Positions 9,506-25,122 of a stretch of 45,700 nt of DNA are shown piece after piece. Made by a program: the position numbers and the translations under genes. Source of the DNA: an uncultured Clostridia bacterium (GTDB taxonomy: Bacteria; Bacillota; Clostridia; Oscillospirales; Ruminococcaceae); assembly GCA_947168885.1 (NCBI GenBank), contig CAMVNQ010000023.1, positions 1 to 45,700 of the forward strand, written 5' to 3'. How positions within the stretch are numbered: position 1 is the first letter of the stretch; each line of letters starts with the position of its first letter. A model generated the notes under the pieces. The model ran no database searches. It was not told where the DNA came from and saw nothing but the letters and a program-made list of their open reading frames with translations.

Positions 9506-12500
9506 TCAATTCTCCTCATCTTCGATTATAACCTCTTCATCGCTCGAAGTCTCTTCCTCTATATACTCATCCTCTTCGATGACCGACGCGTCGTCCCGCT
9601 CCGGGAAGGAGTATGCCGAGCGTGTGACATTGCAGACAGGAGCTCCGCCCACCATTTCCGTTTCAAACGATAGAATGAAGTAATGATCCGTAGGTTCAGG
9701 GTAAGCAAAATTCCGCTCAACGAACGCGTCAAATTCCGTCTGTTTGTAGTATCTCACAGCGAGCTTCAGGTCGCGTCTGCCGTCGCCGCTGATGTAGTAA
9801 ATATTAGTTGGCGGCAGCGACTTTGTACCCGCGATCTCCCACACGACACCGTCCTTGTCGGTGAAGCTGCCGGAGCCGTCAAAGCCTCCGATTTTCACAA
9901 AGCCGGTTTCGAGGCAGAATTGGCTGAATATCGCACTTTGTGCGCTGTTGCCCATGAGCTTGTAAAGTCCCCATACGCCTATCTCGTCGCCGGGGTGCAG
10001 CTCGCGGTCGTTCTCAAATCTGTTTGCAATAACGTATTTGTCGGAAGCGGTATTTATTATAAAAACGTCCTTTTCATCGGAACCGCCGCCGTATGATGCC
10101 AAATTCCACCAACCCTTGTACAGCACGTCGGGCGCGTCTTTCTTGATGATGTAGCATTCGCCGACACCGCAGTTGATATACGGCATGACATACAGTTCGT
10201 CGGTCTCGGCGATACCGCGCGGGAATATCCAGTTCTCGAACGTGAACATATCGTCGCGGTATGTGAGCAGTACGCCGTTGTCGTCGGAGCTGCCGCCGTC
10301 CTTTTCCCACTTGCCGTAGAACGACTTCTCGAACAGCTCGGTGTCAAAGCCGCTTGTTATCTCCGCGAGACGGAACGAGTAGGTCTCTCTGTAGGCGTAA
10401 TTTGTGAGCTTTCGCTTGAATACGTCCCATGAGTTCGCGTACATTGCAGCAGCTTCGCCCGTGAAGGTCTCCTCATACAGCGGAAGGATATTTTGCACTG
10501 CTTCGGGAGTTATCCCGGCGGTAGAGTAGTCGTCGATAGTGTGGTAATAGAGCCACTTCGGGCAGAACGCGTACTTGCCGACAACGATAGAATATTCGCT
10601 TGCGAAATGCTGTGCCGCCGCACTGTCGTCGGCATTTTTTATTACCGCGATGTCCTCCTCCGTGTAGATGTATAATGTGTTGTCAAGCAGATTTGTGGCG
10701 CTTTCAAAATGTTCATTTATTTTCTTTATTGCCTCCGTGATCTCATCATCTGTCAGCTCCATATCCCTTGCCATACCGTAAAAGTTCGGACTGTCATAAA
10801 GGGTGTAAGGCGTTTCGATGCCTTCGATACGTTTACGATATTCGTTGTGTTTTTCATAGTCAAAATTTACGATCTGATCGGCGCCGAAAAGCTTCGGCTG
10901 CCATAGCGAATAAAAAGTAAAGCATCCCAACGGAAATTCCGTCGGACTGAACGGTTCCGGCATATTGTCGGTCTTTACCGAAAGGCGGTCAGTGATCTCC
11001 GCGATCTCGGCGTATCCAGTCAGCTTCGCCTTGAAAAGCTCCCAAGACTTTTCATCGAGATCCTCACCGTTGTCCGTGCCGGTGAATGTCTTTTCGTAGA
11101 GCGGTATCTTTGCCGCTATCATATCCGGTGTAATGCCGATCGCCGCGTAATCTTCGGCAGTGTGGTAGTAGAGCCACTCCGGCGAGATAACGTAGTTGCT
11201 GCCGGGCAGCCATATCGAGTAGTCCGACATGAACAGTGCAATTATCTCCGCATCATTACCGCTTTTCAGTGCGTTTATCTCTTCATCGGAGAATATCTCG
11301 TTGCGACAGTTCATTACAGCGCCTTCATTTCCGCTTTCTTCCGCTTTTTCGAGACTTTCCTGCCACCTTGCATTGCGCTTTTCAAAGTATTCGTCAATTT
11401 CCCCGGAGGTTATCCCGAACTGCTTGATAACGCCCGCGACATTATTATTGTCGTCGAGCCTGTACGGTGTGCGTATGCTCGTGCACATTCTGTTCCACTC
11501 ATCGTAATTCTCGCGTCCGCGGCAGTCCATAGCCGCGCCGACGGCTTTCGTTTTCCACTGGAATTCAAACTGAGCGTTGTCTGTGTCGTGCCATTCGGGG
11601 AAGGGTCTCGGCATGGACGTGTCGGTTATTTGCCCGAAACGGTCGGCGCTGTATTTGCTGTACACAATGCCACCGTTGACATAGAAATAAGCGATATTGT
11701 CAAAATACACGATGCGGTCATTCACGCGGATATCCGGGTCGGCGTAAACGTCACCGATCAACGCCTGCACGAACACCCCGCCGTTACCGTCGTCAACGCT
11801 TCGTCTTACAAACGGCTTCAATTCCTCACCGCTGTTAAGGATAACGCGGAAGTCGTTTTCGAGATCGTCAATGTCGTCTATACTGTCGGCTTTGTACTTA
11901 AACCCGAACATATACGGGCATACCCATATAGTTTCAAGCGTGACCTTTTTGTTATTGTATGTGTACATATCCCGATTCACTTCTATATCGCCGGTCGGGA
12001 GCTTCCCCGAAAAATACACGGGTATCTTGAAGCTTTCAGTGCCGTCCCATTTCGTGAAAATAATGTTCGTGTCGTATTTCGCGCTTTTCAGGTCGAACAC
12101 CTCTACGGAATAAGACACGGTATCGCCGTCCTCCGATACTTTGTCGAAACGGCTCGCGGTCTGTGCGCGCTCCTCGTTACCCTCAATCTTAATATTGAAT
12201 GTGAACGGCTTTACACCCTTGTACGTCACATCAATGTAAAGCTTGCACCAAAGGCGATCGAACTCATACCCAGTGACGTGAACATCAAAGTCGTCGAAGC
12301 TGCGGCGCTCGTCGGCGTGTACATACAGTGCGCCGTGTTCGTTATCAACACTTGTAACAACCGGCTCACTTACGGTAGTTATAACTCCCGGTCTGTCCGG
12401 CTCTCTCACCGCTATCTTATCCCAGTTTATTATCAGCAGCACCGCCGCGCCGATAATAAGGATTGCCGCCGCTGCAACACCGAGCGAATGTGTCACCCAA

Positions 12501-12673
12501 TATATCACGCGGTCTTTTTTGCTTATCTCGCCAATGTCCTCGACAGGGGTTACAGCTACCACAGCGCGGGTATCGGCTGCGCGTTCCTGACTGCCGTGGC
12601 TCGGCATAGCCTCGGTTATGAACCTGTCGTCAAGTCCGCCGATAATTTCCATAACAAGCTCTTCGCGTCTCAT
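9506..12673 (-). CDS. giant membrane anti-sigma-like sensor, WLYYHT-repeat ectodomain
   Basis: 1055 residues: about 56 cytoplasmic residues (MRREELVMEIIGGLDDRFIT...), a transmembrane helix (about 57-84, VIYWVTHSLGVAAAAILIIG), then about 970 extracytoplasmic residues. Residues about 400-556 and 620-764 are a tandem repeat: each begins TPYxLxD and contains P(E/K)WLYYHTxxDYxxxGITPxx, then LYExTFTG, then SWxxFKxKLTxYA. After these comes a Gly/Trp-rich domain (YKGWWNLASYGGGSDEKDVF...) and an acidic tail. Its ATG overlaps the sigma factor stop by 4 bases (ATGA), so it is probably the sigma factor's regulator. The helix is nearly identical to those of the 13391 and 19405 products while the ectodomains differ. 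No known ligand-binding domain is recognised. Confidence 0.85.
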   Translation of the reverse strand: MRREELVMEIIGGLDDRFITEAMPSHGSQERAADTRAVVAVTPVEDIGEISKKDRVIYWVTHSLGVAAAAILIIGAAVLLIINWDKIAVREPDRPGVITTVSEPVVTSVDNEHGALYVHADERRSFDDFDVHVTGYEFDRLWCKLYIDVTYKGVKPFTFNIKIEGNEERAQTASRFDKVSEDGDTVSYSVEVFDLKSAKYDTNIIFTKWDGTESFKIPVYFSGKLPTGDIEVNRDMYTYNNKKVTLETIWVCPYMFGFKYKADSIDDIDDLENDFRVILNSGEELKPFVRRSVDDGNGGVFVQALIGDVYADPDIRVNDRIVYFDNIAYFYVNGGIVYSKYSADRFGQITDTSMPRPFPEWHDTDNAQFEFQWKTKAVGAAMDCRGRENYDEWNRMCTSIRTPYRLDDNNNVAGVIKQFGITSGEIDEYFEKRNARWQESLEKAEESGNEGAVMNCRNEIFSDEEINALKSGNDAEIIALFMSDYSIWLPGSNYVISPEWLYYHTAEDYAAIGITPDMIAAKIPLYEKTFTGTDNGEDLDEKSWELFKAKLTGYAEIAEITDRLSVKTDNMPEPFSPTEFPLGCFTFYSLWQPKLFGADQIVNFDYEKHNEYRKRIEGIETPYTLYDSPNFYGMARDMELTDDEITEAIKKINEHFESATNLLDNTLYIYTEEDIAVIKNADDSAAAQHFASEYSIVVGKYAFCPKWLYYHTIDDYSTAGITPEAVQNILPLYEETFTGEAAAMYANSWDVFKRKLTNYAYRETYSFRLAEITSGFDTELFEKSFYGKWEKDGGSSDDNGVLLTYRDDMFTFENWIFPRGIAETDELYVMPYINCGVGECYIIKKDAPDVLYKGWWNLASYGGGSDEKDVFIINTASDKYVIANRFENDRELHPGDEIGVWGLYKLMGNSAQSAIFSQFCLETGFVKIGGFDGSGSFTDKDGVVWEIAGTKSLPPTNIYYISGDGRRDLKLAVRYYKQTEFDAFVERNFAYPEPTDHYFILSFETEMVGGAPVCNVTRSAYSFPERDDASVIEEDEYIEEETSSDEEVIIEDEEN

Positions 12674-13230
12674 ATCCCGATACCCTCCTTTTCAAGAAAT
12701 TTCCGCAGCTTCTCGCGCACCCGCCGAAGTGTCACCGTGACATTCCCCTCGGTCGTGTGCAGGTCTTTCGCTATGTCGCCGTATTTGCTGCAATAAAAAT
12801 ACCGCCGCACGAACATCACGCGCTTGTCCTTCGGGAGCGTCAGCAGGAACCTCTCTATTGCTTTAAGCACCGCGTTTCTGTCTGCTGTACTTTCGACCGT
12901 TTCCGCAAGCGGCAGGAATTCCGCTATCTCGTCAAAGCTGACTGCGCTGTAGCCGCTGCCATTTCTGGCAGTTTTCCGGCTCTTGAACATATCTATCGCA
13001 AGATTTCGCAAAATTCGCAGCACAAAAGAGCCGAGCTTCGCCGGTCGCTGCGGCGGGATAACATTCCACACCTTCATGTATGTATCGTTCGTGCATTCCT
13101 CGCTGTCCTCGCGACTTCCGAGAATACCGTATGCCGTGTTCCGGCAGCATTCGCCGTATTTCCTGTCAGTCTCGGTTATTGCGTCCTCCGAGCGTGCAAA
13201 ATACAGTTCGATTATCTTTTCGTCGTCCAT
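12670..13230 (-). CDS. ECF-type RNA polymerase sigma factor (cluster 2)
   Basis: 186 residues beginning MDDEKIIELYFARSEDAITE. Region 2 is YGECCRNTAYGILGSREDSE...ECTNDTYMKVWNVIPPQRP with the -10 recognition helix ILRNLAIDMFK. Region 4 is LPKDKRVMFVRRYFYCSKYG...DIAKDLHTTEGNVTVTLRRVRE. Start chosen because GGGAGG lies 6 bases upstream of the ATG at 13230. Region 2 is closely similar to those of the sigma factors at 16440 and 23021, so the three are paralogues. It has its own tandem promoter (sigma-A type, then ECF-like), consistent with autoregulation. Confidence 0.93.
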   Translation of the reverse strand: MDDEKIIELYFARSEDAITETDRKYGECCRNTAYGILGSREDSEECTNDTYMKVWNVIPPQRPAKLGSFVLRILRNLAIDMFKSRKTARNGSGYSAVSFDEIAEFLPLAETVESTADRNAVLKAIERFLLTLPKDKRVMFVRRYFYCSKYGDIAKDLHTTEGNVTVTLRRVREKLRKFLEKEGIGI

Positions 13231-13249
13231 TTCCGTCCTCCCGTCTGAA

Positions 13250-13293
13250 CTTCTCTACATATAAAGACGAGAAAATATACCAAAACCTAACAC
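13250..13293 (-). promoter_or_regulatory. ECF-like promoter of sigma gene 13230
   Basis: Minus strand: GTGTTAGGTTT (from 13293), 13 bases, CGTC (13269-13266), then TTTATATGTAGAGAAG. It has the shared architecture described for the other sigma genes here and lies directly upstream of the ribosome binding site. Confidence 0.65.
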
Positions 13294-13317
13294 ATTTTAT
13301 CAAAATTTTCTGAAATT

Positions 13318-13346
13318 ATTATAGCGCAATTTTGCGGGGATTGCAA
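13318..13346 (-). promoter_or_regulatory. sigma-A-type promoter of sigma gene 13230
   Basis: Minus strand TTGCAA (13346-13341), 17-base spacer, TATAAT (13323-13318). It lies upstream of the ECF-like promoter, giving basal plus autoregulated transcription. Confidence 0.65.
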
Positions 13347-13351
13347 CAGTC

Positions 13352-13382
13352 AAAATAAAGGACAGAGGGATAACCTCTGCCC
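13352..13382 (-). terminator. intrinsic terminator after the 831-residue sensor gene
   Basis: Minus strand: GGGCAGAGG, five-base loop, CCTCTGTCC (one G-T pair), then TTTATTTTG. It directly follows the gene ending at 13391 and overlaps the -35 side of the next promoter. Confidence 0.8.
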
Positions 13383-13390
13383 CTTGTTAT

Positions 13391-15886
13391 TCAACGCCAG
13401 TGATAGAACGTGTCCGAGAAGGCTATCCGCCACCCATCGTTCGTCCTGACAATCCGATATTTGTTGTATGAGACCGTGTATTTGTCGTTTTGCATCTCGT
13501 CATAGACGGGATCCTCGCCAAGCTTGACGTGGTAGCACTTCGACAGGAACACGATCTCGTCGTCGGTCTGCGTTTGCAGTAGATAGTCGATGTGCACAAG
13601 CGTCAGGTCGCCGCCCGCCGCAGTAGGTTGATAATACAGCTCTTCACCGTATTTGTAGAAAGTTCCGGCATGCTGATTTAACAGAGTGTTCGCCCATTCC
13701 TCAGTAAACACGTCAAGCCAAGCTTTGCGGAAGCTCTCATAGGTGAAGCCTGTCGAGTACAGCTTTGTGAACGCACTATCCCTGTCCGGCTCCGGAACTC
13801 TTATCACAGTCTTTGCCGCACTACTGTCAACGCCGCCAAAGCCGTCTATATCTGCAAAGTCGTCAGTGACCGTTATGCTATTCAGAAAATATCCTTTGAA
13901 GAACAGCTCTTTCAACCCGTCAACGCCTAAGCTGTCGAGAAATTCCCCGACCTTGTACCGTTCATACCGGTTATCATGCGTATCAGACCACCATTTTGCC
14001 CAGTCCAGATATCGTTGTGTCAGTGTATTATCCGCGTTGAACTTCGATAGGCTCTCCGAGGGCGCAGGCTCTCCCTCCGTGACCTCGACGGCACTTTCGT
14101 CCGGCAGTATCATCGGATTTTCATAGGGGATATGCTCTATCGGCTTGTTGTACATTATCGTTATCTCATCTACCGCGTCGGCTATCGCTTCACCCGCGAC
14201 AACACTCATGCCCTCGGCCACATAGCAGTCATAATACAGTCCGGAATACACCCATGTGCCGGTACCGTTGGTCTCTTTTACTATCATATAGTTGCCGCAA
14301 CCGTTTGCGCAGCCTATCTCGCTCACTGTGCCGTCCGTGATTGCATATACATCGGAATGGTTCATATCAGGCTTCACGGTGAAGGTGTTGTTACCCTTGT
14401 ACCGAAGAGTGTACAGCCCGCCGCCAACGTCTATCGGGTACGCGAAGCCGTTGCCGCTCTCCACGAATTTCCGAAGCTGCTCAGCGGCTTCCTTGGCTTC
14501 ACCGTTAAGGCGGTCGGTGTAGGTGAAGTGCTCAAGGTCGAGCACTATGCTCTTGTCGCCCGTGTAAATGTCATGGTATGTCAAACCGCCCTTGCCGTCG
14601 CTCACGATGCTTTCAAGCGGCTGCTCGGTATCGATGAACAGGTCGCGTATGCGTTCAAGCTGTCTGCCGTCATACGCATAGACCGTCACGGCAAAGCGCT
14701 TGTACAGCGGTACGCCCACAAGTATGACTGCCATTTTGCTGCCGAAATTTTCGGCATCGAGCGTGTAAGCTATGACGTTGAAGCTGCCCATTGTGTCGAA
14801 TTGCAGAACCCAGTTGTTTTTTTCGTAGCCCTTTGTAACGAGCATCTCTTCACCGAAATTAAGCTCTCCGTCGCCGTTTTTGGGGTGTATCGTGACGGTC
14901 GCATTTTCGGCGGAGCGTACAACGCGGCTGTAGTCCTCGCCGACGGTTATTTCGTTCAGACGCACACTCGCGTAAAGGTCGGTGCCTTCGATATCGCAGT
15001 CAACGCGTATATTTTCGGCGGGTACGCCGCGGTACAGCCGGTCATACGGCGTGTTGTCGTCGTATGTCACAACAGTATCATTTAACCCGAAATTGCCTTT
15101 GCCCCGTATCTCAATGCCAACGGCGCTGTCGTCTGTTCCCCTAAACGTCACATCGTCGGGACTCTTGACCGTGCGAATATTGTACGGGTCAAAGTCGAAC
15201 TTGCCGTCCGCAGTGAAAACATATGGGGTCATCATATATTCACCGCTGTCAAGCGGCATAAACACAAGTCCCCAATACCCGTTTCTGCGGTTCTTCGCCA
15301 GCTTCAGCTCTATACCGCGTTCCCACTCGAAGGTATCGTCGCGGGTGAGTAATTGCGCGCTCGCGATAGCCTGACCGGTCGCGGTGTCGGCTATCTCTAC
15401 CCGGGCATCACGCGTGTTGCACACTGGACTTCTGCCTTCTGTAAGCTGCGCTTCTTCGCACACAAGTCGCAGACACTTGCCGTCAACGGTCTTGCTCGGC
15501 ATCGTCAGCGCGAGGAGTTCCTCGGGTATAATATCGGGGACGTACAGCGTCGCTGTATCGTCGTTTTCCGAAGCAGCGAACGTGGTTGTTGCGGCATCGA
15601 TCACAGCGGGCTCCCTCACCGCTATCTTATCCCAATTCATTATCAGCAGCACCGCAGCGCCGATGATAAAGAACGCTGCCGCTGCAACACCGAGCGAATG
15701 TGTCACCCAATATATAATACGTTCCTTCTTCGTTATCTGCACCTCGGACCCATATTGAACAAGATTGGCGGAATTAACGGGAACCGCTGCACTGTCTGCG
15801 TCCAGATAAGTGGGGGCGGCTTTTTCTATCATGTCTTCTCCGATGTCTCCAAGAGCTTTTATAAGTCTGTCGGCTCTGTCGTTCAT
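13391..15886 (-). CDS. giant membrane anti-sigma-like sensor, degenerate LytM-like ectodomain
   Basis: 831 residues: a cytoplasmic N-terminus (MNDRADRLIKALGDIGEDMI...), a transmembrane helix (about 58-85, IIYWVTHSLGVAAAAFFIIG), then the ectodomain. Residues about 480-575 resemble an M23/LytM peptidase barrel (FAYPID..., HSDVYAITDGTVSEIG..., GNYMIVKE..., VAEGMSVVAGEAIAD). The zinc-binding HxxxD and HxH signatures are absent, so it is probably a binding module and not an enzyme. The C-terminus (about 700-831, ending IVRTNDGWRIAFSDTFYHWR) looks like an SnoaL/IseA-type alpha+beta domain, which I cannot assign firmly. The start overlaps the sigma gene stop by 4 bases. Confidence 0.83.
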   Translation of the reverse strand: MNDRADRLIKALGDIGEDMIEKAAPTYLDADSAAVPVNSANLVQYGSEVQITKKERIIYWVTHSLGVAAAAFFIIGAAVLLIMNWDKIAVREPAVIDAATTTFAASENDDTATLYVPDIIPEELLALTMPSKTVDGKCLRLVCEEAQLTEGRSPVCNTRDARVEIADTATGQAIASAQLLTRDDTFEWERGIELKLAKNRRNGYWGLVFMPLDSGEYMMTPYVFTADGKFDFDPYNIRTVKSPDDVTFRGTDDSAVGIEIRGKGNFGLNDTVVTYDDNTPYDRLYRGVPAENIRVDCDIEGTDLYASVRLNEITVGEDYSRVVRSAENATVTIHPKNGDGELNFGEEMLVTKGYEKNNWVLQFDTMGSFNVIAYTLDAENFGSKMAVILVGVPLYKRFAVTVYAYDGRQLERIRDLFIDTEQPLESIVSDGKGGLTYHDIYTGDKSIVLDLEHFTYTDRLNGEAKEAAEQLRKFVESGNGFAYPIDVGGGLYTLRYKGNNTFTVKPDMNHSDVYAITDGTVSEIGCANGCGNYMIVKETNGTGTWVYSGLYYDCYVAEGMSVVAGEAIADAVDEITIMYNKPIEHIPYENPMILPDESAVEVTEGEPAPSESLSKFNADNTLTQRYLDWAKWWSDTHDNRYERYKVGEFLDSLGVDGLKELFFKGYFLNSITVTDDFADIDGFGGVDSSAAKTVIRVPEPDRDSAFTKLYSTGFTYESFRKAWLDVFTEEWANTLLNQHAGTFYKYGEELYYQPTAAGGDLTLVHIDYLLQTQTDDEIVFLSKCYHVKLGEDPVYDEMQNDKYTVSYNKYRIVRTNDGWRIAFSDTFYHWR

Positions 15887-16440
15887 ATCTGCACACCCTC
15901 CTTTTCCAAATATTCCCGCAGCTTCTCGCGTGTGCGGTGCAGTGACATTTTGACCTTGCTCTCACCGAGATGCATTTCGGCAGCTATCTCCGATACAGTG
16001 CGAAGATACCAGTATCGTTTCAGGAATATGAGCTGCTTTTCACAGTCGAGCGAACGCAAAAACTTATCAAGCAGAGCCGAAAGCTCCTTGTCATCGACGC
16101 ACTTCTCGACAGTATCGGGCGACGGTAGGCTCTCCGAAAGCTCATCATAAGCCGCTCCGTATCTTCCGCCGCGTTTCTTGGCTGAAAGACGCTCCAGCAT
16201 ATTCAAAGCAAGATTTCGGGCTATACGGGCTATGAACGCACGGAATTTTTCGGGACGCTGCGGAGGTATGAGTTCCCACAGCCGCATATATGTATCATTG
16301 ACGCATTCTTCGCTGTCCTCTCGGCTTCCAAGTATGCCGAATGTCACAGAACGGCAGAATGAACCGTGTTTCTTGTCGGTCTCGGTTATCGCATCTTCCG
16401 AGCGTGCGAAATACAGTTCTATTATTTCGGAGTCCTTCAT
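15883..16440 (-). CDS. ECF-type RNA polymerase sigma factor (cluster 3)
   Basis: 185 residues beginning MKDSEIIELYFARSEDAITE. Region 2 is HGSFCRSVTFGILGSREDSE...ECVNDTYMRLWELIPPQRPE with IARIARNLALNMLER. Region 4 is DCEKQLIFLKRYWYLRTVSE...IAAEMHLGESKVKMSLHRTRE. GGGAGG precedes the ATG at 16440 by 6-7 bases. It is a paralogue of the sigma factors at 13230 and 23021, but the region 4 recognition helix differs, so promoter choice may have diverged. It is divergent from the exported cell-wall-binding gene at 16712. Confidence 0.93.
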   Translation of the reverse strand: MKDSEIIELYFARSEDAITETDKKHGSFCRSVTFGILGSREDSEECVNDTYMRLWELIPPQRPEKFRAFIARIARNLALNMLERLSAKKRGGRYGAAYDELSESLPSPDTVEKCVDDKELSALLDKFLRSLDCEKQLIFLKRYWYLRTVSEIAAEMHLGESKVKMSLHRTREKLREYLEKEGVQI

Positions 16441-16460
16441 CTTATCCCTCCCGTTTTAGT

Positions 16461-16502
16461 TCTCTGATATATATGACAGGAAATGAGCGCCAAACGTCAC
16501 AC
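16461..16502 (-). promoter_or_regulatory. ECF-like promoter of sigma gene 16440
   Basis: Minus strand: GTGTGACGTTT (from 16502), 13 bases, TGTC (16478-16475), then ATATATATCAGAGAAC. The -10 half-site has TGTC where the others have CGTC or CGTT. Confidence 0.6.
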
Positions 16503-16515
16503 TTTTTTTAAAAAT

Positions 16516-16544
16516 ATTATATCTCATTTCCGAAACAAATGCAA
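16516..16544 (-). promoter_or_regulatory. sigma-A-type promoter of sigma gene 16440
   Basis: Minus strand TTGCAT (16544-16539), 17 bases, TATAAT (16521-16516), just upstream of the ECF-like element. Confidence 0.6.
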
Positions 16545-16628
16545 CGGTTAATTTCTTTGTGCATTATGCCTGATATCGAGCTTGCTGTTTGTGCAACCAT
16601 ACAAATTTATAGAAACATCTCATAATTA

Positions 16629-16668
16629 TGTCACATTTTGTCCTTTTTGATCGTTTATATATATGAAG
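16629..16668 (+). promoter_or_regulatory. ECF-like promoter of the cell-wall-binding gene pair
   Basis: Plus strand: TGTCACATTT (from 16629), 13 bases, CGTT (16652-16655), then TATATATATGAAG. It has the same layout as the sigma-gene promoters, which makes the 16712-17772 genes candidate targets of these sigma factors. Confidence 0.6.
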
Positions 16669-16711
16669 GGCGTAAATAAGCAAAAACACCAGACAAGAAA
16701 GGATAACAGCA

Positions 16712-17752
16712 ATGAAAAAGAAGTTAAAACTGATCGCAGCCGCTCTTGCGGCAATTACCGCGCTGTCCTGCACAAGCGCAACAGCTTACGCGGACAAGCT
16801 GAAAACTGTTGGCGGAGTTACATATAAGTATTCTGACAGCGGAGAGCAGAAAGGTAAGTACACCGGCTGGGCGAAAACGAGCAAGGGACGGTATTACTAC
16901 AAAGACGGGGTGAAGCTCAAAAGCAAGTGGCTGTCCGTAAAAGGCAGGAAAACATACTATCTGCTCAGCAGCGGGAAAATGGCGACCGGAGACATATTCT
17001 TCAAGAACGGGAAAACATATCATTTCGGCAGTGACGGAAAGCTTGATTTCGGCATTTTTGCGGGAATAAACAAAACTGATGAGGACGAGATCACTCAGTC
17101 GTCCCTGCGAATGCAGTACGACGGCTTTGCGGTCGCGATACAGGATACTCCCGTTTGGGGGATAAGTTTAGATGACGATTACGGTATAACCAATTTCCGG
17201 GCGGAGTTTGTACGCTTCAACACCGACGACTACATCATAGAGCACAAGGACGGCAGCGGCAATTGGGTCGAGTGCGAAAGAACAGAACATGAGAAACAGG
17301 TATTGTCCGAAAGCGCCGATACTGCCGAAAGCTTTTTCCGGCTTAGCTATGAACGTATAGTGCCGGGATACGGATTTACGGAAATAAACTGGGCGGACAG
17401 GTACGGAAAGCTGCCGGCGGGCGAATACCGCTATGTGAACAACTACACCTGCACACCGCCGGACGGTTCCGCACAGTTCACCGGAAAATTCAGATTCACG
17501 TTCACCGTCAGAGAAGACCGTGTTTTCACCGCAGCGGAACTACAGGCTGTCTATGACCGTCTGAATGAGCACAGGAAGGAATACGGCATTTATGAATTGT
17601 ATATCTCAGAAGACCGTAACCGCGTTGAAGCCGTTGTCTATGATGCGCTCAGCGCCGATGAACTGAATGCCGCGTTAAGGGAGTATATAAAAACTCTCGA
17701 TGATGACAGGATCTTATTGATCGGATATGATGATCTTGGTGTCGATGACTGA
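16712..17752 (+). CDS. exported cell-wall-binding-repeat protein with Ig-like domain
   Basis: 346 residues; AAAGGA lies upstream of the ATG. The signal peptide is MKKKLKLIAAALAAITALSC...ATAYA. Residues about 40-115 are choline/cell-wall-binding-type repeats (YTGWAKTSKGRYYYKDGVKL, then KTYYLLSSGKMATGDIFFKN, then KTYHFGSDGKLDFG). Residues about 130-275 look like an Ig-like domain (VWGISLDDDYG..., NWADRYGKLPAGEYRYVNNY) of the type repeated in the 19405 sensor. The C-terminus holds a YDRLNEHRKEYGIYELYISE helix-strand segment. The product probably binds the cell surface. It is followed 19 bases later by a paralogue, and its promoter has the ECF-like motif. Confidence 0.87.
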   Translation: MKKKLKLIAAALAAITALSCTSATAYADKLKTVGGVTYKYSDSGEQKGKYTGWAKTSKGRYYYKDGVKLKSKWLSVKGRKTYYLLSSGKMATGDIFFKNGKTYHFGSDGKLDFGIFAGINKTDEDEITQSSLRMQYDGFAVAIQDTPVWGISLDDDYGITNFRAEFVRFNTDDYIIEHKDGSGNWVECERTEHEKQVLSESADTAESFFRLSYERIVPGYGFTEINWADRYGKLPAGEYRYVNNYTCTPPDGSAQFTGKFRFTFTVREDRVFTAAELQAVYDRLNEHRKEYGIYELYISEDRNRVEAVVYDALSADELNAALREYIKTLDDDRILLIGYDDLGVDD

Positions 17753-17771
17753 TATCAGGAGGAAGATGAGA

Positions 17772-19352
17772 ATGAGTATAAAACTCAAAGCTTTGGCTGC
17801 CGCGCTTGCGGCAGTTACCGCGCTTTCCTGCGCGTCGGTCACAGCTTTTGCGGACAAGCTAAAAACCGTTGACGGTATCAGATACCGCTATTCCGACAGC
17901 GGTCAACAGGTAGGCAAATACACCGGTTGGGCGAAAACGAGCAAGGGACGGTATTACTACAAGGACGGAGTCAAGGTCAGAAACACCTGGATAAAGAACA
18001 AGAAAGGCGAGTACCGCTATCTTGGCAGCGACGGGCGCATGGTCACAGGCTGGTATGACGTGAAGCAAGGCAAGGAAGGACGTTTCAGCTGGTTCGACGA
18101 TAACGGAGTATGGGACGAACAGACCTACTACAGCCGTTACAACGAATATGAAGGCTTCGGGAATACTGTCACGATCAAGGTGGCGCGAAATGAGATCATC
18201 AGCGAATCAATGTCGCGGTATCTCGACAACGGTCTCGGAAGTGAAAAGAAAGCAAGATCGTATGTTCTCAATAATAACGAGTATGAGCTTGAAATTCCGC
18301 TGTCAGTCGCCGATCAGCTCACTGTCGGCGACAAGCTTATAGTCTCACCTAATGTTAAACGCGGAGAAAAGGTTGACGGCGAATATCAGTACAAACTCTG
18401 CATTCCGACGCTCTATTCTCCCAACAAGGGCGACGAAATGTACAGATACAACAAGGACAGCGGCACAATTCTCGAAGAAGTCACCGAAGCGCGCATGGAG
18501 CTGTTCAACAAGCTGCTCGTGCTTAAAAGCGGGAAACTGAAACTTGACATGATGTTTGGCGCTTACGGGCTTGACTGGGATTATCTGGAGAGTGAAGACT
18601 TCTATAAGGAACCGTACGTTTATACACATATTCGCCGGGATAGTGACGGCAACAGGTATGATGAATATACATACGGCTTGTTCGGCGGTAGCAATGAATT
18701 TAATGAGAAAACCGGAAAATATGCTTTCCGGAACAACATTTCTGAAAAAACGCTGAAAAAGCTGATGATGAACAAGATTGCCGCGCATAAGGAAGAACTG
18801 GAACAGCACAAGAATGATGATGTTGACTGGTCAATGTGGGTAATCAATATGGAACACCTCTGGCTCGATGTTACAGTCACCGATATACCGGAGCTTCCGC
18901 TTTCGATAGACAAGCGCAAGTTTATCGACCCACCGGAACTGACCGTAACAGCGGGTGATAAAGCTGAAAAAGCGGATAAGGGTACATATTCATGGGAAAA
19001 CGAATATACTGATATCAACATGAGCAGCGCAACTGACTGCGACGCATTGGGGGCGCTCGAAAGCTTCGCTTTCAGCCACCCGCTGACAATGAAAGATACC
19101 GAACCTGTTTCGCTCTCGTTTTCAACGATTGCAAAACCTAAGCAGATCACGGTGAGGTGTTGGAAGGACGAATATAAGGGCGACTACGCCGCATATGACA
19201 AGTTTGAGACTGTTACCGTTGAAGATTTACACTTCACACCGAAGAAAGGCGGCTATATCTATGAAATACACGCTTCTTGGGACAAATTTACCGATAATGA
19301 CGTTACAATGAGCGGAAACTGTTATTATACCGTTTACATCATAGGAAAATAA
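17772..19352 (+). CDS. exported cell-wall-binding-repeat protein, paralogue of 16712 product
   Basis: Start chosen at the ATG at 17772, 9 bases after AGGAGG, rather than the longer frame start at 17727; this gives 526 residues. Signal peptide MSIKLKALAAALAAVTALSC...VTAFA is followed by cell-wall-binding repeats (YTGWAKTSKGRYYYKDGVKV, EYRYLGSDGRMVTGWYDVKQ). The signal peptide and repeat region are nearly identical in DNA to the upstream gene, so this is a recent tandem duplication. The remaining 400 residues are unrelated to the neighbour and unrecognised (SYVLNNNEYELEIPLSVADQ..., SIDKRKFIDPPELTVTAGDK). Probably co-transcribed with 16712. Confidence 0.85.
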   Translation: MSIKLKALAAALAAVTALSCASVTAFADKLKTVDGIRYRYSDSGQQVGKYTGWAKTSKGRYYYKDGVKVRNTWIKNKKGEYRYLGSDGRMVTGWYDVKQGKEGRFSWFDDNGVWDEQTYYSRYNEYEGFGNTVTIKVARNEIISESMSRYLDNGLGSEKKARSYVLNNNEYELEIPLSVADQLTVGDKLIVSPNVKRGEKVDGEYQYKLCIPTLYSPNKGDEMYRYNKDSGTILEEVTEARMELFNKLLVLKSGKLKLDMMFGAYGLDWDYLESEDFYKEPYVYTHIRRDSDGNRYDEYTYGLFGGSNEFNEKTGKYAFRNNISEKTLKKLMMNKIAAHKEELEQHKNDDVDWSMWVINMEHLWLDVTVTDIPELPLSIDKRKFIDPPELTVTAGDKAEKADKGTYSWENEYTDINMSSATDCDALGALESFAFSHPLTMKDTEPVSLSFSTIAKPKQITVRCWKDEYKGDYAAYDKFETVTVEDLHFTPKKGGYIYEIHASWDKFTDNDVTMSGNCYYTVYIIGK

Positions 19353-19366
19353 TCAAAAATCCAACC

Positions 19367-19401
19367 AAAAAGCATCACCGGTTAATCCCGATGATGCTTT
19401 T
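19367..19401. terminator. bidirectional intrinsic terminator
   Basis: AAAAGCATCA, internal CGG/CCG pairing, TGATGCTTTT, between the convergent genes ending at 19352 (plus) and 19405 (minus). A-rich on one side and T-rich on the other, so it can serve both. Confidence 0.8.
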
Positions 19402-19404
19402 CTG

Positions 19405-22400
19405 TTATTCTCCGATTTTTTCTGGAGTATCGGCGGTTATGTCGAACTCACAGTAGATCATTATATCTTTTGTCTTTCCGTCGACCACTGCGCTGAACTT
19501 CTTCCCCAACCGATAGTGTCCGGCAGAAAGTATCCCAAACAATTCCTTCCACTCAATAGTCCCCATAATGCCGGACGAACCGCCGCCGGTAAATGCAGTC
19601 AGAGTGGGTGACGAGGACTTCTGCGAAACCGCGCCTTCCGCTGCGGAAAGAGTCTTCCATTCACCTTCGGCTGTCTGTTTTTGCAGCGAAAACTCTTTAT
19701 CGCTTAACGTTCTTACGTTATAGTCTCCTCCGAGACTTTCAAACGCAAATCGTCCGCCTGTCTGCGAAACCTCGATCGGTCGTATCTGTAAACCGAACTC
19801 ATTTGTCATATATTCCTCGACTGTGAATTCCGCGTTTATCGTTTCGAAAACGCTGCCGCCGGTGAACGTAAGGCCTATGCGATATTCCCCGACAGGAAGA
19901 CTGCCCGCTCTTTCCCGCCAGTCAACGGTAAATGTCACTACATCACCCGCGTTTATTTTTCGGGCAGTCTCCGGTGTGGGGATCCCCGGAACAGCGGTAG
20001 TATAATACTCTGTCCATTTGCCGTTTTTCTTCTGCTCAATTACATAGCGGCTCTCATTGAAACTCATGTGTTCGCTGACCGTATCGCCTATACTTGCGGC
20101 ATCGAGCGTTATCCAGCGCGCGGTATTCCGTTTAGTGTTAAGTGTTATACCGAGCTTTGAATCTATCTCGGGAACATCGAATTCCATATAAAAGTCACAT
20201 TGGTCGTAATCACCCGTTTTCCGGAAATCCATGAACTCCTTGACTAACCGATAATGTCCGGCGGGAAGATATCCGTAAATATAAGTCCAGTTTATCTGCT
20301 CTTCATTATGCGCGCCGGGCTCAAGGATATATCCGATATCCGTCCAATTAATTTCATCTGTTATATATCCAAGTTTTTCCCATGTACCGAATTCATCGCT
20401 CTTTACTTCGATGCTGAAGTCTTCGCCATAAGTAAGCTCTCCCGTGGAATTACCGCCTTTCTGATCTAAAAGGAGCGTCATTCCCGCAGGCGTTACGTCC
20501 TTCGCGGACATCGTTATTCCCCAGTCGTGAGTTTTTTCACCTATCACAAATTCACAGTAATATGTGCTGCAATTAACAACAGTCAATTCTCCGGCAGTAT
20601 ACCCGTAATTCACGAACTGCATTGATATGCGGTATGTTCCGTCGGAAAGCGAGCCGTATATATCCGAGAAGTCCTGCTTTATCTCGGTCACGCCGTTCTC
20701 ATTGATCGGCTCGACATCGGGCGCCCATGTCACGGGATTGCCATCGACCTTTTTCCATTCGCCCGACCCGGTTTTCATTTCAATAATGAACCAAGCCTTA
20801 TATCCGAGCTTATCTTTGACCTCAAAATAATTGTGACCATCCTGCCATACTACCAATGTTACGCCCTCGGGTGTCACATCCTTTACCGACAGCGCAATAC
20901 CGAACAAATTCTGCGTTGTTTCGGTTATATCGAACTCTGCGTATGCGTCCAGCCGACCGAGGCGTTCTCCCGTTACCTCACTGTAAACCGCCATACCCTT
21001 TTTGACGCGGTAATGCCCGTTCGGGATCTCGGTCTCATACATATCCTTGCCGTAGAAGAGAATCTTTTCTTCCTCTTCCTCGTGTCCGAATTCGCCGCCA
21101 AGTTCAAGAATAAGGTCGAACCAATGAGTCCCGTCGTTCCAGCTTTCAAGAGTTTCGGGGTCATAGGTCTCCCACTCTCCCGCCGAATTGCGGACTTGTA
21201 TCTCATATCTGTTGCTCATATCGTAGGCAAGCTTGTCGGCGTACTGTACGCTCTTGTCTCTTGTGTAGTGCAGTTTCAGACTTCCGCGCGTGAGGTCGCT
21301 TACAGTCACTTTCAGTCCGCAGGCATCGGCTCCACGCTCGACGAGGGCTTTAAGCTCGTCATCGGTGGGTTGCACCTCTTCATCGGTGGGTTTTACATCA
21401 TCATCGAACGGTGCATCAGGTGCTTCTATCGGGATAACATCACCGTCATCGTTATATTCGTATTCCGATTCCTCCCGCTGCTTGTTCTCGGTTATATAGC
21501 GGTCGAGCTTTTCCTTGAATTCGGCTGTTTGCTCATCACTCAAAACTCCGTTGTTGATATAATAATCATACATCGTATTTATCGTTGCGGCTTTGACACC
21601 GGCAGCCTTCCAGTCTTCAAGAGAGTGAACAAACAGCCAGTTCGGACAGATCAGTTTGCCGCCAAATCCCCATGTCGTGTTGTTTATTAGCTCGCCCACA
21701 GTTCCGTTATCATCGAGATTGCCGGAGCATATTATGTCGAGCATTCTGTCGGCAGCTTCACTGTCCTGCCACATTTTTCCAATATACTCTCGGTACTCTT
21801 CGCCAAGTGCTATTTTTGCATCCTCGGGATAAATACCAAAATGAGCTATAAATGTGCATATATTTGCGTAATCCGCGATACTCTCTGGCGGGGCTGTTGT
21901 AATATCAACAGACATTAGTTTCCATTTCTCAAGCTCATTCGGGTCTGCAAGCGCAATCAGGCTATCGGGGATAGTGTTTATAGCAAAGTATGGATAATAG
22001 AACGCCTGTCGATGCTGTTCTTTCTCCCATTCGTCTGCGGAAGTTGCTGTAAAGTTATCAATATTGGGAGTTGACGGATCCTCGTCCGTTGTCGTGGCAT
22101 TTGTCGTAACAGTTATTTCCGGCTCCGTTGTTGTGCTGCTATTTGTAACAACAGGCTCGCTGACGGTCGTTACAATACCCGGTCTGTCCGGCTCTCTCAC
22201 CGCAATTTTATCCCAGTTCATTATCAGCAGCACAGCCGCGCCGATGATAAGAAACGCCGCCGCTGCAATACCAATCGAACGCGTCACCCAATATATCACG
22301 CTCTCTTTTCTGCTGACCTCATTTGTGACCTCTACAGGCTTTATCGGAATAGTTTTGCGGGTATCGTCGGGAACATCATGACCGCAGGAACGCGGCATTG

Positions 22401-22464
22401 CAAGAGCGACATACTTTTCGTCAAGACCGCCGAGAATGTCGATAAACAATTCTTCTCTTCTCAT
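19405..22464 (-). CDS. giant membrane anti-sigma-like sensor with five Ig-like domains
   Basis: 1019 residues: cytoplasmic N-terminus (MRREELFIDILGGLDEKYVA), transmembrane helix (about 57-84, VIYWVTRSIGIAAAAFLIIG), a Thr-rich stalk (about 100-140), then one copy of the WLYYHT-type module (about 190-325, with PNWLFVHSLEDWKAAGVKAA). A Glu/Asp-rich linker leads to five Ig-like domains at about 380-514, 520-642, 647-764, 770-882 and 888-1010. Each has a (F/W/L)G(I/L) opening, a VTPxGxTL-type strand and a late YGxLPxGHYRL-type strand; this resembles the bacterial Ig-like family that I believe is PF20251. The start overlaps the sigma stop by 4 bases. Probably a surface-binding sensor. Confidence 0.85.
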   Translation of the reverse strand: MRREELFIDILGGLDEKYVALAMPRSCGHDVPDDTRKTIPIKPVEVTNEVSRKESVIYWVTRSIGIAAAAFLIIGAAVLLIMNWDKIAVREPDRPGIVTTVSEPVVTNSSTTTEPEITVTTNATTTDEDPSTPNIDNFTATSADEWEKEQHRQAFYYPYFAINTIPDSLIALADPNELEKWKLMSVDITTAPPESIADYANICTFIAHFGIYPEDAKIALGEEYREYIGKMWQDSEAADRMLDIICSGNLDDNGTVGELINNTTWGFGGKLICPNWLFVHSLEDWKAAGVKAATINTMYDYYINNGVLSDEQTAEFKEKLDRYITENKQREESEYEYNDDGDVIPIEAPDAPFDDDVKPTDEEVQPTDDELKALVERGADACGLKVTVSDLTRGSLKLHYTRDKSVQYADKLAYDMSNRYEIQVRNSAGEWETYDPETLESWNDGTHWFDLILELGGEFGHEEEEEKILFYGKDMYETEIPNGHYRVKKGMAVYSEVTGERLGRLDAYAEFDITETTQNLFGIALSVKDVTPEGVTLVVWQDGHNYFEVKDKLGYKAWFIIEMKTGSGEWKKVDGNPVTWAPDVEPINENGVTEIKQDFSDIYGSLSDGTYRISMQFVNYGYTAGELTVVNCSTYYCEFVIGEKTHDWGITMSAKDVTPAGMTLLLDQKGGNSTGELTYGEDFSIEVKSDEFGTWEKLGYITDEINWTDIGYILEPGAHNEEQINWTYIYGYLPAGHYRLVKEFMDFRKTGDYDQCDFYMEFDVPEIDSKLGITLNTKRNTARWITLDAASIGDTVSEHMSFNESRYVIEQKKNGKWTEYYTTAVPGIPTPETARKINAGDVVTFTVDWRERAGSLPVGEYRIGLTFTGGSVFETINAEFTVEEYMTNEFGLQIRPIEVSQTGGRFAFESLGGDYNVRTLSDKEFSLQKQTAEGEWKTLSAAEGAVSQKSSSPTLTAFTGGGSSGIMGTIEWKELFGILSAGHYRLGKKFSAVVDGKTKDIMIYCEFDITADTPEKIGE

Positions 22465-23021
22465 ATCCCGATACCCTCCTTTTCGAGAAATTCCCGCAGT
22501 TTCTCGCGGGTGCGCGTCAAACTTTTTCTTACCCTGTCCTCGGTAGTGTTAAGGTCGGCGGCGATCTCGCCGTATGTGCTGAAATAAAAGAATCGCCGAA
22601 CGAACATGATCTGCTTTTCCCGCGGCAGAGTTGACAGAAACTTTTCGACCGCGTTAAGCACAGCCTGCCTGTCGACTGCACTTTCGACGCTTTCCTTTGC
22701 CGGAAGGCAGCAGGCTATCTCATCAAAATCAACTGACTTGAACCCGCCACCGTTCTTGATTCGCTTTGCGGCTTTGTACATATCGAGCGCGATGTTGCGC
22801 GCAATGGTCACAACAAAAGCACCGAGCTTTTTCGGCTTCTGCGGCGGGATCGCGTCCCACACCTTCATATATGTATCGTTTGTACATTCTTCGCTGTCCT
22901 CGTGACTTCCGAGTATGTTGTACGCCACGTTCCTGCACGCGCCGCCGTATTTCTTGTCGGTCTCCGTGATAGCGTCCTCTGAGCGGTCAAAGTACAGCTT
23001 TATTATTCTGTCGTCGTTCAT
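22461..23021 (-). CDS. ECF-type RNA polymerase sigma factor (cluster 4)
   Basis: 186 residues beginning MNDDRIIKLYFDRSEDAITE. Region 2 is YGGACRNVAYNILGSHEDSE...ECTNDTYMKVWDAIPPQKPK with VTIARNIALDMYK. Region 4 is LPREKQIMFVRRFFYFSTYG...EIAADLNTTEDRVRKSLTRTRE. GGGAGG lies just upstream of the ATG. It is most similar to the 13230 sigma factor. It has the same tandem sigma-A/ECF-like promoter layout. Confidence 0.93.
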   Translation of the reverse strand: MNDDRIIKLYFDRSEDAITETDKKYGGACRNVAYNILGSHEDSEECTNDTYMKVWDAIPPQKPKKLGAFVVTIARNIALDMYKAAKRIKNGGGFKSVDFDEIACCLPAKESVESAVDRQAVLNAVEKFLSTLPREKQIMFVRRFFYFSTYGEIAADLNTTEDRVRKSLTRTREKLREFLEKEGIGI

Positions 23022-23041: not shown

Positions 23042-23083
23042 TCTCTATTTATTAAGACGATTTTTATCACGCAAAGCGGACAC
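23042..23083 (-). promoter_or_regulatory. ECF-like promoter of sigma gene 23021
   Basis: Minus strand: GTGTCCGCTTT (from 23083), 13 bases, CGTC (23059-23056), then TTAATAAATAGAGACC. Confidence 0.65.
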
Positions 23084-23202: not shown

Positions 23203-25122
23203 TCAGCCTACGCGCATCGAGAACAGTTGATGATCCGTCAGTCCGGATGTACCGGTATGTCCAATGATATCTCCGGCTTTCACTGTATCGCCCTGTGCAG
23301 TATTCAGCTCCGCTGCAAGATGTCCATACAGCCAGTAATGACCGTTATCGTCAAGTATCAGGACGGTATTGCCCCACCCTTGATAAAAGCCCGCAAATTC
23401 GACCTTACCGCCCGCAAGCGCCGTTACGTCGAAGTCGGCATAATCTATGCAGAATTCTGTGCCGGTGAATTTGAATATGCTCTTGTCATACGGGAACGGG
23501 TAGTCATAATCTATGCCGCCGCGTTCTTTCACAAGCTCCCACGCTTCGTCGCCGGTTATCGGAGCTTCAAGTAATTCTCCGTAAAACTCGTTATTGCCTA
23601 TCACTGCGGGAAATTCGGGGAGAGCAGCTTCGGTCGAGTTTACGGGATCTTCGTTGCCCTCTATCACCTCATAGGGAGGTTCATATCCGGGAGGATAAAT
23701 TCCCTCGATAAGCGATATGTCGTCCTGCTGTATTTCCGTCAATTCATTAAATATCTTTGAATTAAAGGCGCCGAAATCTTTTGTCGGTTCGGTCTTGCTG
23801 AAATCCACGGTACATTCAAGGAAAGTTTCGGACATCTGCGTATCGGGACGGCGTATCATTATCTTGTAGGTATGCCTTCCGGCTCCCGATATATCCCAGA
23901 CGAGCTTATCCGTTTCTGAAATATCTTTTATCTCGGTAAGTTCCTCCTGAAGCACATCGTCGATGTAGTACAGAAATTCATATTCACCCGGCACCTCAAC
24001 TTTGGATATATCAACAGATATCTGGGTTGAGCGTTCAAAGCTGTAATAATACACATCCGCAATGTCAATATCAATTCCGTTTGTCGGGAATGAAAGTATT
24101 CCACCGTTATCATTGGGTACGAACGTTCCTTTTCCTATTTTCGTTTCATTCCCGTCAAAATCTACAGTAACAAGCTGTAAATTTTCAAACTCCGACCGGT
24201 CGGTTTCTCCGATAAGCTCAAACGTTATCTCTGTTGTAGTGGCTACGATCTTGCCAGCGTGGTATGCGAACGGATATCCCGGATCCTTGGTTCCTTCAAA
24301 ATCTGTGTTAGCGTACTGCACGGCAGTCTTTCCGTTAATGAGATAAGCGTGTATTTTTTTATAAAAACCTGGCATTTTGGGTGCGTCTTCTGGCATATCG
24401 CCTACCTGCCTTGCCCAACCGTCATCCCAATCGTAAAATTTAAGCGTTACGGAATCGGTCGGCTTGTCAAATGTCACGGTATAACGTCTCTTTTGTGACG
24501 TGTCTTCGGTACTGAACACACTATCCGTTTCGTCAGAATATGATGGAGTACCGGCAAGCAGCAGAATCAACCTGTTAAACACATTGTCGTGATTGTAATC
24601 GGAATGCGGTTCTCCGTCAAATTCCACATTATACTGCACTGTGAGTTTCCTGCCGTCGAACTGCCACCAGTCAACTATCGCTCTTACTCCGTCAAATTCA
24701 AACACATTTTCCGGAGTTTCTATATCATATCGTATGTCTTCCGTTGCAATAAGTGCGTTAGTAGTTTCTGCGGCGCTTTGTGTAGGCTCGGTCATATCCT
24801 CATGATACCCCGCGCCGTTGCTGCTCCCGATACCGCCCTCTTTAAGCCCCCCGTGCTCGTTCAGAAATTTTAGCCCGAACACCGCTCCCGTAAGCACTGC
24901 CGCCGCGCCTGCAACACCGGCAACAGCGTGAAGCACCTTAGCACTCTTTTTCGGCTCGGTGTAATCGGTAGTTACCTCAACAAGACCATTATGTTCACTG
25001 TTTTCTTTTTTCATATTCTTCGCCCTTTCTTTAATGATACTCATAAATGTATCATCATCTGTCATGGGGGCTTTTTTATATGCAGCCGACAAAGCACTTC
25101 TGAAAAAATCGTTATAATTCAT
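23203..25122 (-). CDS. membrane anti-sigma-like sensor with M23-like C-terminal domain
   Basis: 639 residues: about 60 cytoplasmic residues (MNYNDFFRSALSAAYKKAPM...), a transmembrane helix (about 62-85, VLHAVAGVAGAAAVLTGAVF), a middle region of beta-sandwich-like segments, and a C-terminal M23/LytM-like domain (about 545-639). In that domain GKVEFAGFYQGWGNTVLILD, YWLYGHL and GDTVKAGDIIGHTGTSGLTD are clear. The first zinc ligand pair (HxxxD) is missing and the HLHFE end reads HQLFS, losing the second His. Hydrolase activity is therefore unlikely; peptidoglycan binding is plausible. The gene overlaps the sigma factor gene by 11 bases. Confidence 0.85.
   Translation of the reverse strand: MNYNDFFRSALSAAYKKAPMTDDDTFMSIIKERAKNMKKENSEHNGLVEVTTDYTEPKKSAKVLHAVAGVAGAAAVLTGAVFGLKFLNEHGGLKEGGIGSSNGAGYHEDMTEPTQSAAETTNALIATEDIRYDIETPENVFEFDGVRAIVDWWQFDGRKLTVQYNVEFDGEPHSDYNHDNVFNRLILLLAGTPSYSDETDSVFSTEDTSQKRRYTVTFDKPTDSVTLKFYDWDDGWARQVGDMPEDAPKMPGFYKKIHAYLINGKTAVQYANTDFEGTKDPGYPFAYHAGKIVATTTEITFELIGETDRSEFENLQLVTVDFDGNETKIGKGTFVPNDNGGILSFPTNGIDIDIADVYYYSFERSTQISVDISKVEVPGEYEFLYYIDDVLQEELTEIKDISETDKLVWDISGAGRHTYKIMIRRPDTQMSETFLECTVDFSKTEPTKDFGAFNSKIFNELTEIQQDDISLIEGIYPPGYEPPYEVIEGNEDPVNSTEAALPEFPAVIGNNEFYGELLEAPITGDEAWELVKERGGIDYDYPFPYDKSIFKFTGTEFCIDYADFDVTALAGGKVEFAGFYQGWGNTVLILDDNGHYWLYGHLAAELNTAQGDTVKAGDIIGHTGTSGLTDHQLFSMRVG

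Follow-up and report, generated by a model that had tools for sequence, protein, structure and literature searches.

Candidate ECF anti-sigma factors with a short two-helix sigma-facing element and exchanged ectodomains in an uncultured Clostridia bacterium

RsgI proteins of Clostridium (Acetivibrio) thermocellum bind the C-terminal domain of their sigma factor through a cytosolic N-terminal domain, which is followed by one membrane helix; nine RsgI are encoded in one genome, with varied sensor ectodomains, and most of their helices contain XAA motifs; fragments ending at these motifs, exposed by RseP cleavage, are degraded by ClpXP (PMC12203970). Class I anti-sigma factors (ASDI, e.g., RsiW and RseA) have a four-helix domain, domains of less than 50 residues being set aside in PMC7406223; they are usually membrane-bound and encoded beside the gene of an extracytoplasmic function (ECF) sigma factor (PMC7406223, PMC8103513). 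In CnrY (class II), the sigma-binding part consists of two helices, helix 1 lying on sigma4 and helix 2 on sigma2 (PMC7406223). RsiV is a direct receptor of extracellular lysozyme and is then cleaved by signal peptidase and RasP (PMC9044953). The present analysis concerns a stretch of 45,700 nucleotides from an uncultured Clostridia bacterium of the Ruminococcaceae (assembly GCA_947168885.1, contig CAMVNQ010000023.1, positions 1 to 45,700; hereafter the window), which encodes three cassettes, each composed of an ECF sigma factor and a membrane protein proposed to be its anti-sigma factor (Table 1).

In all three cassettes, the sigma open reading frame overlaps that of the membrane protein by four bases (ATGA). 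The open reading frame coordinates bear out the first-pass annotation of this DNA, which had described three sigma genes of one type, each joined by such an overlap to a single-pass protein of 831-1055 residues. The two other sigma factors are 51% and 67% identical to that of cassette 1; all three contain sigma regions 2 and 4 and no other sigma region (Pfam), score above the cut-offs of TIGR02937 (ECF superfamily) and of Sigma70_r2/r4, and also match ECF structures. The first ~90 residues are common to the three membrane proteins, up to a near-identical membrane helix, and beyond it the sequences diverge. Very probably, each cassette constitutes an autoregulated ECF sigma factor with a membrane anti-sigma factor, the sensors of which have been exchanged over evolution. 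The first ~25 residues, predicted to fold into a pair of short amphipathic helices linked at G-x-[ILV]-D-[DE], would bind sigma region 4 and keep the sigma factor inactive, and the ectodomain would sense something outside the cell. Upon the signal, the ectodomain might be cut or shed, an RseP/RasP-type site-2 protease would cut the membrane helix near a conserved Ala-Ala pair, and the released piece, ending in an XAA degron, would be destroyed by ClpXP; the freed sigma factor would then transcribe at least its own operon. The sequestering is proposed because of couplings between the two proteins, the intramembrane proteolysis because of the Ala-Ala pair and an M50 protease gene, and the autoregulation because a promoter site is conserved. 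In the course of evolution, the sigma factor and the N-terminal helices would be kept as a matched pair, and exchange of the membrane segment and ectodomain would furnish old circuits with new sensors.

The N-terminal element follows the consensus [LF]-x-x-[AI]-[LI]-G-x-[ILV]-D-[DE]-x-[YLF]-[IV]-x-E-A, after which most relatives have positive residues and the membrane helix. The cytosolic part comprises ~56-57 residues before the helix in the window proteins, ~22 of which form the conserved two-helix motif; in relatives, it spans 29-57 residues, with 29-40 being common. Couplings between this element and the sigma factor were calculated by inverse covariance from 205 sigma/N-terminus pairs (effective number 141), with 30 re-pairings as a control. 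The best coupling between sigma and the helices reaches 0.153, compared with at most 0.076 across the re-pairings. Eight couplings exceed the re-pairing maximum, and seven of these, contributed by both helices, fall within sigma residues 117-150, which correspond to the first helices of region 4 when the Pfam match is compared with the AlphaFold2 model. The same stretch accounts for 52% of the top 25 couplings, against 18% expected from its length and no more than 36% in the re-pairings. Outside sigma4, S14 and C29 show weaker couplings and K83 (in or near sigma2) a strong one. The membrane segment provides a telling control, because it belongs to the same proteins and shares their history: in a joint run, the maximum was 0.143 for the sigma-helix couplings and 0.057 for those from sigma to the membrane segment, and after removal of the other genus genomes (170 pairs) the corresponding values were 0.130 and 0.057. 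An earlier calculation of mutual information on 108 pairs, in which only one coupling exceeded the re-pairing maximum, was superseded by the 205-pair analysis.

A structural view of the element comes from a relative in which sigma and anti-sigma factor are naturally fused (L176). Its AlphaFold2 model (predicted TM-score 0.81) contains two helices, residues 189-197 and 201-208, ahead of the membrane helix, with a mean predicted local distance difference test score of 80 for residues 181-190 and of 91 for residues 191-210; the input comprised 126 alignment rows, all but two of them sigma alone, and the model describes this relative, not the window proteins. One alignment (A7), which combined a read-through sigma/anti-sigma chain with separate rows, was dropped, as its N-terminal rows fell wholly or mostly on sigma; the replacement (A8) consisted of sigma rows and two joined chains. 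Taken together, the sigma-facing part appears to be two short helices of ~25 residues; the coupling is computed, and from it we infer binding and inhibition. The first-pass annotation had suggested a new anti-sigma type residing in an inner domain of ~95 residues: the N-terminus indeed covaries with sigma, but the covarying part is limited to ~25 residues. As that annotation had also held for zinc anti-sigma domains, no anti-sigma family model from Pfam or NCBIfam matches the three window proteins, and no model of any kind covers their N-terminus. In wider sets, no Pfam anti-sigma match was seen; among 39 relatives, NCBIfam yields a single weak match named 'anti-sigma factor' (E 3.5e-4), whose position in the protein is not shown. 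A protein search with residues 1-108 of protein 1 (candidate lengths limited) returned a single 83-residue fragment.

The sign of the effect deserves separate consideration. Linkage, couplings, and fusion all indicate association, whichever the sign of the effect, and are also compatible with a membrane protein that serves as a positive co-receptor or anchor recruiting sigma, its helices binding the sigma factor to activate or position it. We regard this as unlikely, since the conserved Ala-Ala pair in the membrane helix fits an inhibition released by proteolysis, and coupling to region 4 fits inhibition as well: this region is bound by the N-terminal domain of RsgI (in the C-terminal domain of SigI), by helices 1-3 of class I domains, and by helix 1 of CnrY (PMC7406223, PMC12203970).

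The proposed anti-sigma element is closely linked to sigma genes well beyond the window. A sigma search over one genome per species yielded 47 loci, 45 of which (including Oscillospiraceae-type metagenome-assembled genomes, Angelakisella, and Exiguobacterium) were followed, mostly with a four-base overlap, by a membrane protein whose cytosolic N-terminus is short; the two others (L049 and L052, with downstream frames of 75 and 105 residues and the weakest sigma matches) were excluded from later sets. The first-pass annotation had proposed a hidden Markov model of the N-terminus as a check; the matches of such models nearly always adjoin ECF sigma genes, and neither an absence of the sensors beside sigma genes in related genomes nor a result separating the N-termini from sigma binding appeared. 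A close model (A5) matches 16 of 60 genus genomes and 4 of 197 family genomes (E<=1e-3), and a broad one (A4) matches 31 of 61 family genomes at the same threshold; at E<=1e-7, the broad model matches 89 of 197 genomes in the order and 8 of 199 in the phylum. The own genome is included in every count. Of the 61 non-seed family matches that the N-terminal model found on its own, the strongest 40 were inspected: in 39, an ECF sigma gene lies no more than 400 bases upstream and in nearly every case touches the match, and the remaining one lies 108 bases from a contig end. The order matches comprised 128 rows neither from the own genome nor examined before; after exclusion of 20 (six near a contig end, the rest weak), 105 of the 108 retained, two of which are seed members, have an ECF sigma gene within 300 bases upstream, with a four-base overlap in 90. 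Of the three exceptions, one is at a contig end (L169), one is the natural fusion in one open reading frame (L176, 443-1459), and one is an orphan (L188). In total, ECF sigma genes lie close upstream in 142 of 146 non-seed matches; the rest are one fusion, two contig ends, and one orphan.

The exchange of outer domains, suspected in the first-pass annotation, is seen directly in chimeric proteins and in a comparison of 703 pairs from 38 cassettes of 13 genomes. Of 43 cassettes, five had been dropped beforehand (sigma cut off or missing, or ectodomain cut off), and in five of the 38 the ectodomain is open at its end. Sigma identity is rank-correlated most strongly with the identity of the helices (0.86), followed by the linker (0.53), the membrane segment (0.31), and the ectodomain (0.22). 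Where sigma identity is at least 0.85, 19 of 37 pairs lack detectable ectodomain similarity, and both ectodomains are complete in 11 of these 19. An alternative would be that the differing ectodomains are ancient and have diverged beyond recognition, the likeness of the membrane segments reflecting constraint only; selection alone could indeed account for conservation of that segment at the protein level. This is hardly credible in view of cassettes such as G033_C4_8324 and G002_C82_23001, in which sigma factors 95% identical and behind the same promoter site accompany ectodomains without similarity, and conversely G052_C72_4432 and G007_C122_4671, with 58% sigma identity and an ectodomain score of 0.90. 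Two public metagenome proteins are likewise at odds with it: P0005 is 92% identical to cassette 2 in residues 1-26 and 79% identical to cassette 1 in its ectodomain (over 702 residues), and P0009 is 96% identical to cassette 3 in residues 1-26 and 74% identical to cassette 1 in its ectodomain (over 696). A third such protein, P0010, has the same arrangement as cassette 1. Outer domains have thus been exchanged among cassettes and genomes, which suggests that ligands may change by the same route.

The DNA of the membrane segment also speaks against ancient divergence. The YWVT[HR]S[LI]G[VI]AAAA...NWDKIAVRE stretch is near-identical in protein across the three window proteins and similar in DNA (identity 0.78-0.86), and at four-fold sites the segments are more alike (0.71-0.81, 14-17 sites a pair) than the sigma genes (0.47-0.51); related membrane segments joined to unlike ectodomains had been reported in the first-pass annotation, and both the protein and the DNA comparison agree with it. 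Within this helix, Ala-Ala occupies one aligned column in 91% of the 205 proteins, and an Ala-Ala at any position of the segment is found in 201 of 205, compared with a mean of 146 and a maximum of 158 in shuffled segments. The pair suggests proteolysis of the RseP/ClpXP type by analogy with RsgI; the route outlined above is proposed because of this motif, because the genome encodes an M50 protease, and because of the precedents of RsgI and RsiV.

The sigma genes are preceded by a G[CT]GT...YGTC element, which has nearly constant spacing and resembles an ECF-type promoter. It is present in 27 of 39 cassettes under a loose and in 22 of 39 under a strict definition, compared with shuffle maxima of 3 and 2, respectively; these counts cover related cassettes, so that common descent adds to them. 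A pattern derived from the three sites of the window finds a single additional place in the 3.78 Mb genome, and its reversed control likewise finds one.

Several observations weigh against the proposed interpretation. The element is missing from 12 (loose) or 17 (strict) of the 39 cassettes. In random halves of the 205 pairs, the gap between the helices and the membrane control narrows (0.074 vs 0.050 and 0.063 vs 0.047), with Q137-L21, V141-L14, and S130-Y18 (cassette 3 numbering) among the top couplings in both halves. The correlation between sigma and helix distances is modest (rho 0.34 on 108 pairs and 0.19 below 60% sigma identity). As the helices adjoin the sigma gene, the rise of the sigma-helix correlation with nearness could partly reflect linkage; linkage alone would not readily explain the site-specific couplings or the membrane control. 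No significant homogenisation of the membrane segment within genomes is seen (p=0.14). Finally, no sigma gene was detected within 1000 bases upstream of the orphan N-terminal domain (L188, 1-459, reverse strand). The outer part of this orphan looks serpin-like by eye, and the fetched piece has no Pfam match.

Compared with the described systems, the cassettes resemble RsgI in the short cytosolic domain, the single membrane helix, the varied ectodomains, the occurrence of several copies per genome, and the XAA-like motif. This common layout would be expected if they were an ordinary RsgI/SigI set with a diverged RsgI N-terminus, a reading that we consider very improbable. RsgI_N (PF12791) is unmatched in the genome at E<=0.01, in agreement with the first-pass annotation, which had seen no RsgI-type N-terminus; the control search recovers it in Bacillus subtilis and Lactococcus lactis, and Pfam scans of the family contain no RsgI_N. 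Moreover, the partner is an ECF sigma factor instead of SigI, an assignment that rests on the ECF and Sigma70 cut-offs, no separate search with SigI models having been made. The sigma-facing element proposed for the cassettes also differs from RsgI in its length of ~25 residues, and the ectodomains differ in including Ig-like (immunoglobulin-like), degenerate M23, serpin, and alpha-2-macroglobulin domains and the WLYYHT module. With class I, the cassettes share a proposed membrane anti-sigma factor adjoining an ECF sigma gene; they differ in the two helices of the modelled relative, the frequent cytosolic parts of 29-40 residues, and the lack of Pfam anti-sigma matches. In many relatives, the domain is too short for class I. 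The nearest architecture is that of class II, with no sequence match: as in CnrY, the sigma-facing part consists of two helices, here predicted, whereas the strongest couplings of both helices concentrate in region 4. No CnrY chain is among the results of the PDB profile search. CnrY comes from a different phylum. With SigV/RsiV, the cassettes would share the principle of an anti-sigma factor acting as the receptor; the domains of RsiV, which we take to be DUF3298 and DUF4163, have no Pfam match listed for the window proteins. The titles and abstract openings of the papers listed in the literature searches, among which the 2021 ECF reclassification does not figure, mention neither this N-terminal domain nor anti-sigma factors that contain serpin or alpha-2-macroglobulin parts.

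The diversity of the sensors is reflected by the ectodomains, most of which lack a named Pfam domain. The WLYYHT element, listed in the first-pass annotation as repeats, is present; it is really a mobile module of ~190 residues, which protein 1 carries twice and protein 3 once, and 27 copies occur in 18 of 43 proteins. Among public proteins with the module, 46 of 52 start with the N-terminal domain; of the other six, two carry a precomputed BlaR1/M56 match (PF05569), two have lipoprotein-like starts, and two look cut or start elsewhere. The module on BlaR1/M56-type receptors and lipoprotein-like proteins (P0051, P0053, P0042, and P0043) lies beyond sigma systems. The degenerate LytM ascribed to protein 2 fits an M23 stretch just below the Pfam threshold, and HxH, looked for throughout the protein, was not found. 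The five Ig domains ascribed to protein 3 were not recovered: Big_14 matches four stretches at E<=0.5 and three at E<=0.01 (Pfam), and never five. Serpin matches occur in 5 of 47 proteins of one set and 2 of 39 of another. The same 47 proteins include three with M23 (one being the window's other-type protein, 23206-25122), two with a beta-propeller, two with Big_14, and two with weak IseA-like matches (best E 2.1e-4); 40 close-family members include six with Big_14 and three with M23.

Table 1. Positions of the cassette genes, promoter-like sites, and protein features in the window
Feature	Coordinates	Strand	Basis or remarks
Sigma factor, cassette 1	12670..13230	-	ECF, 186 aa, sigma2 + sigma4; Pfam Sigma70_r2, Sigma70_r4_2
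Sigma factor, cassette 2	15883..16440	-	ECF, 185 aa; Pfam
Sigma factor, cassette 3	22461..23021	-	ECF, 186 aa; Pfam
Membrane protein 1, proposed anti-sigma factor	9506..12673	-	1055 aa; start codon overlaps sigma stop (ATGA)
Membrane protein 2, proposed anti-sigma factor, cassette 2	13391..15886	-	831 aa
Membrane protein 3, proposed anti-sigma factor, cassette 3	19405..22464	-	1019 aa
Proposed two-helix sigma-binding element, protein 1 residues 1-26	12596..12673	-	Conservation, couplings; helices modelled in a relative only
Proposed two-helix sigma-binding element, protein 2 residues 1-27	15806..15886	-	Conservation, couplings
Proposed two-helix sigma-binding element, protein 3 residues 1-26	22387..22464	-	Conservation, couplings
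Membrane helix with conserved Ala-Ala, protein 1 ~residues 57-82	12428..12505	-	
Membrane helix, protein 2 ~residues 58-83	15638..15715	-	
Membrane helix, protein 3 ~residues 57-82	22219..22296	-	
Promoter-like site (ECF type) preceding sigma gene 1	13262..13293	-	
Promoter-like site (ECF type) preceding sigma gene 2	16471..16502	-	
Promoter-like site (ECF type) preceding sigma gene 3	23052..23083	-	
WLYYHT module copy 1, protein 1 residues 349-555	11009..11629	-	
WLYYHT module copy 2, protein 1 residues 569-760	10394..10969	-	
WLYYHT module, protein 3 residues 147-324	21493..22026	-	First 12 model positions missing
Degenerate M23/LytM stretch, protein 2 residues 510-571	14174..14359	-	Pfam E=2.3e-6, 28.1 bits vs cut-off 28.7
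Best-scoring Big_14 Ig-like domain, protein 3 residues 648-749	20218..20523	-	Pfam E=1.8e-39, whole protein

The genome encodes two further cassettes. A fourth, close one, on another contig (G000:C12 31213), has a recombinase-like open frame, identified by eye, directly upstream (L061 around 7208; L003 1-940) and lacks the first element of the promoter, which is kept in the relatives G002:C109 and G042:C252, as might result from insertion of an element into the promoter. Its ectodomain, judged by eye, combines its WLYYHT module with an Ig-like part and with a C-terminus resembling that of cassette 2. The fifth, more distant cassette (G000:C1 411737; L132 2001-7007) encodes a protein of 1669 residues that matches alpha-2-macroglobulin families, with A2M at E 8.4e-9 and the bait-region domain at E 2e-5, both above the cut-offs; it is proposed to carry a protease-bait ectodomain on a putative anti-sigma factor. 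Elsewhere in the window, an ECF sigma factor of another type (25660-25112, reverse strand), only 21% identical to the cassette 1 sigma, is followed by a membrane protein with a C-terminal M23 match in Pfam (25122-23203, reverse strand); the pair is unlisted by either N-terminal model (A4 or A5) at E<=1e-3. A further ECF sigma gene (4814-4269, reverse strand) overlaps by four bases a frame of 226 residues (4272-3592), after which lies a gene for a leucine-rich-repeat protein. Two proteins that look secreted and weakly match choline-binding repeats are encoded on the forward strand in the interval separating cassettes 2 and 3 (16712-17752 and 17727-19352); they are possible targets or partners.

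A broader reading can be offered only tentatively, and we hold it to be rather doubtful: a minimal, hitherto undescribed two-helix anti-sigma family of ~25 residues might serve gut and rumen Clostridia of the order as a common socket for a recombining library of sensors, with the membrane segment as the recombination joint, and some of the sensors (serpins, alpha-2-macroglobulin baits, the IseA-like inhibitor, and the dead M23) might report enzymes attacking the cell surface. The interpretation of the cassettes as sigma/anti-sigma pairs would in itself assign a concrete function to membrane proteins that lack annotation in gut and rumen bacteria, where the broad model matches 89 of 197 order genomes, and candidate contact residues in the sigma factor and the helices can be named by position. 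It would also describe a signalling family in which the exchange of inputs is readable from sequence, the sigma factor and its matched helices staying together. For synthetic switches, elements of this kind would provide anti-sigma peptides that are very small and matched in specificity, and, if the outer sensors were swapped, one switch could be rewired to new signals from outside the cell.

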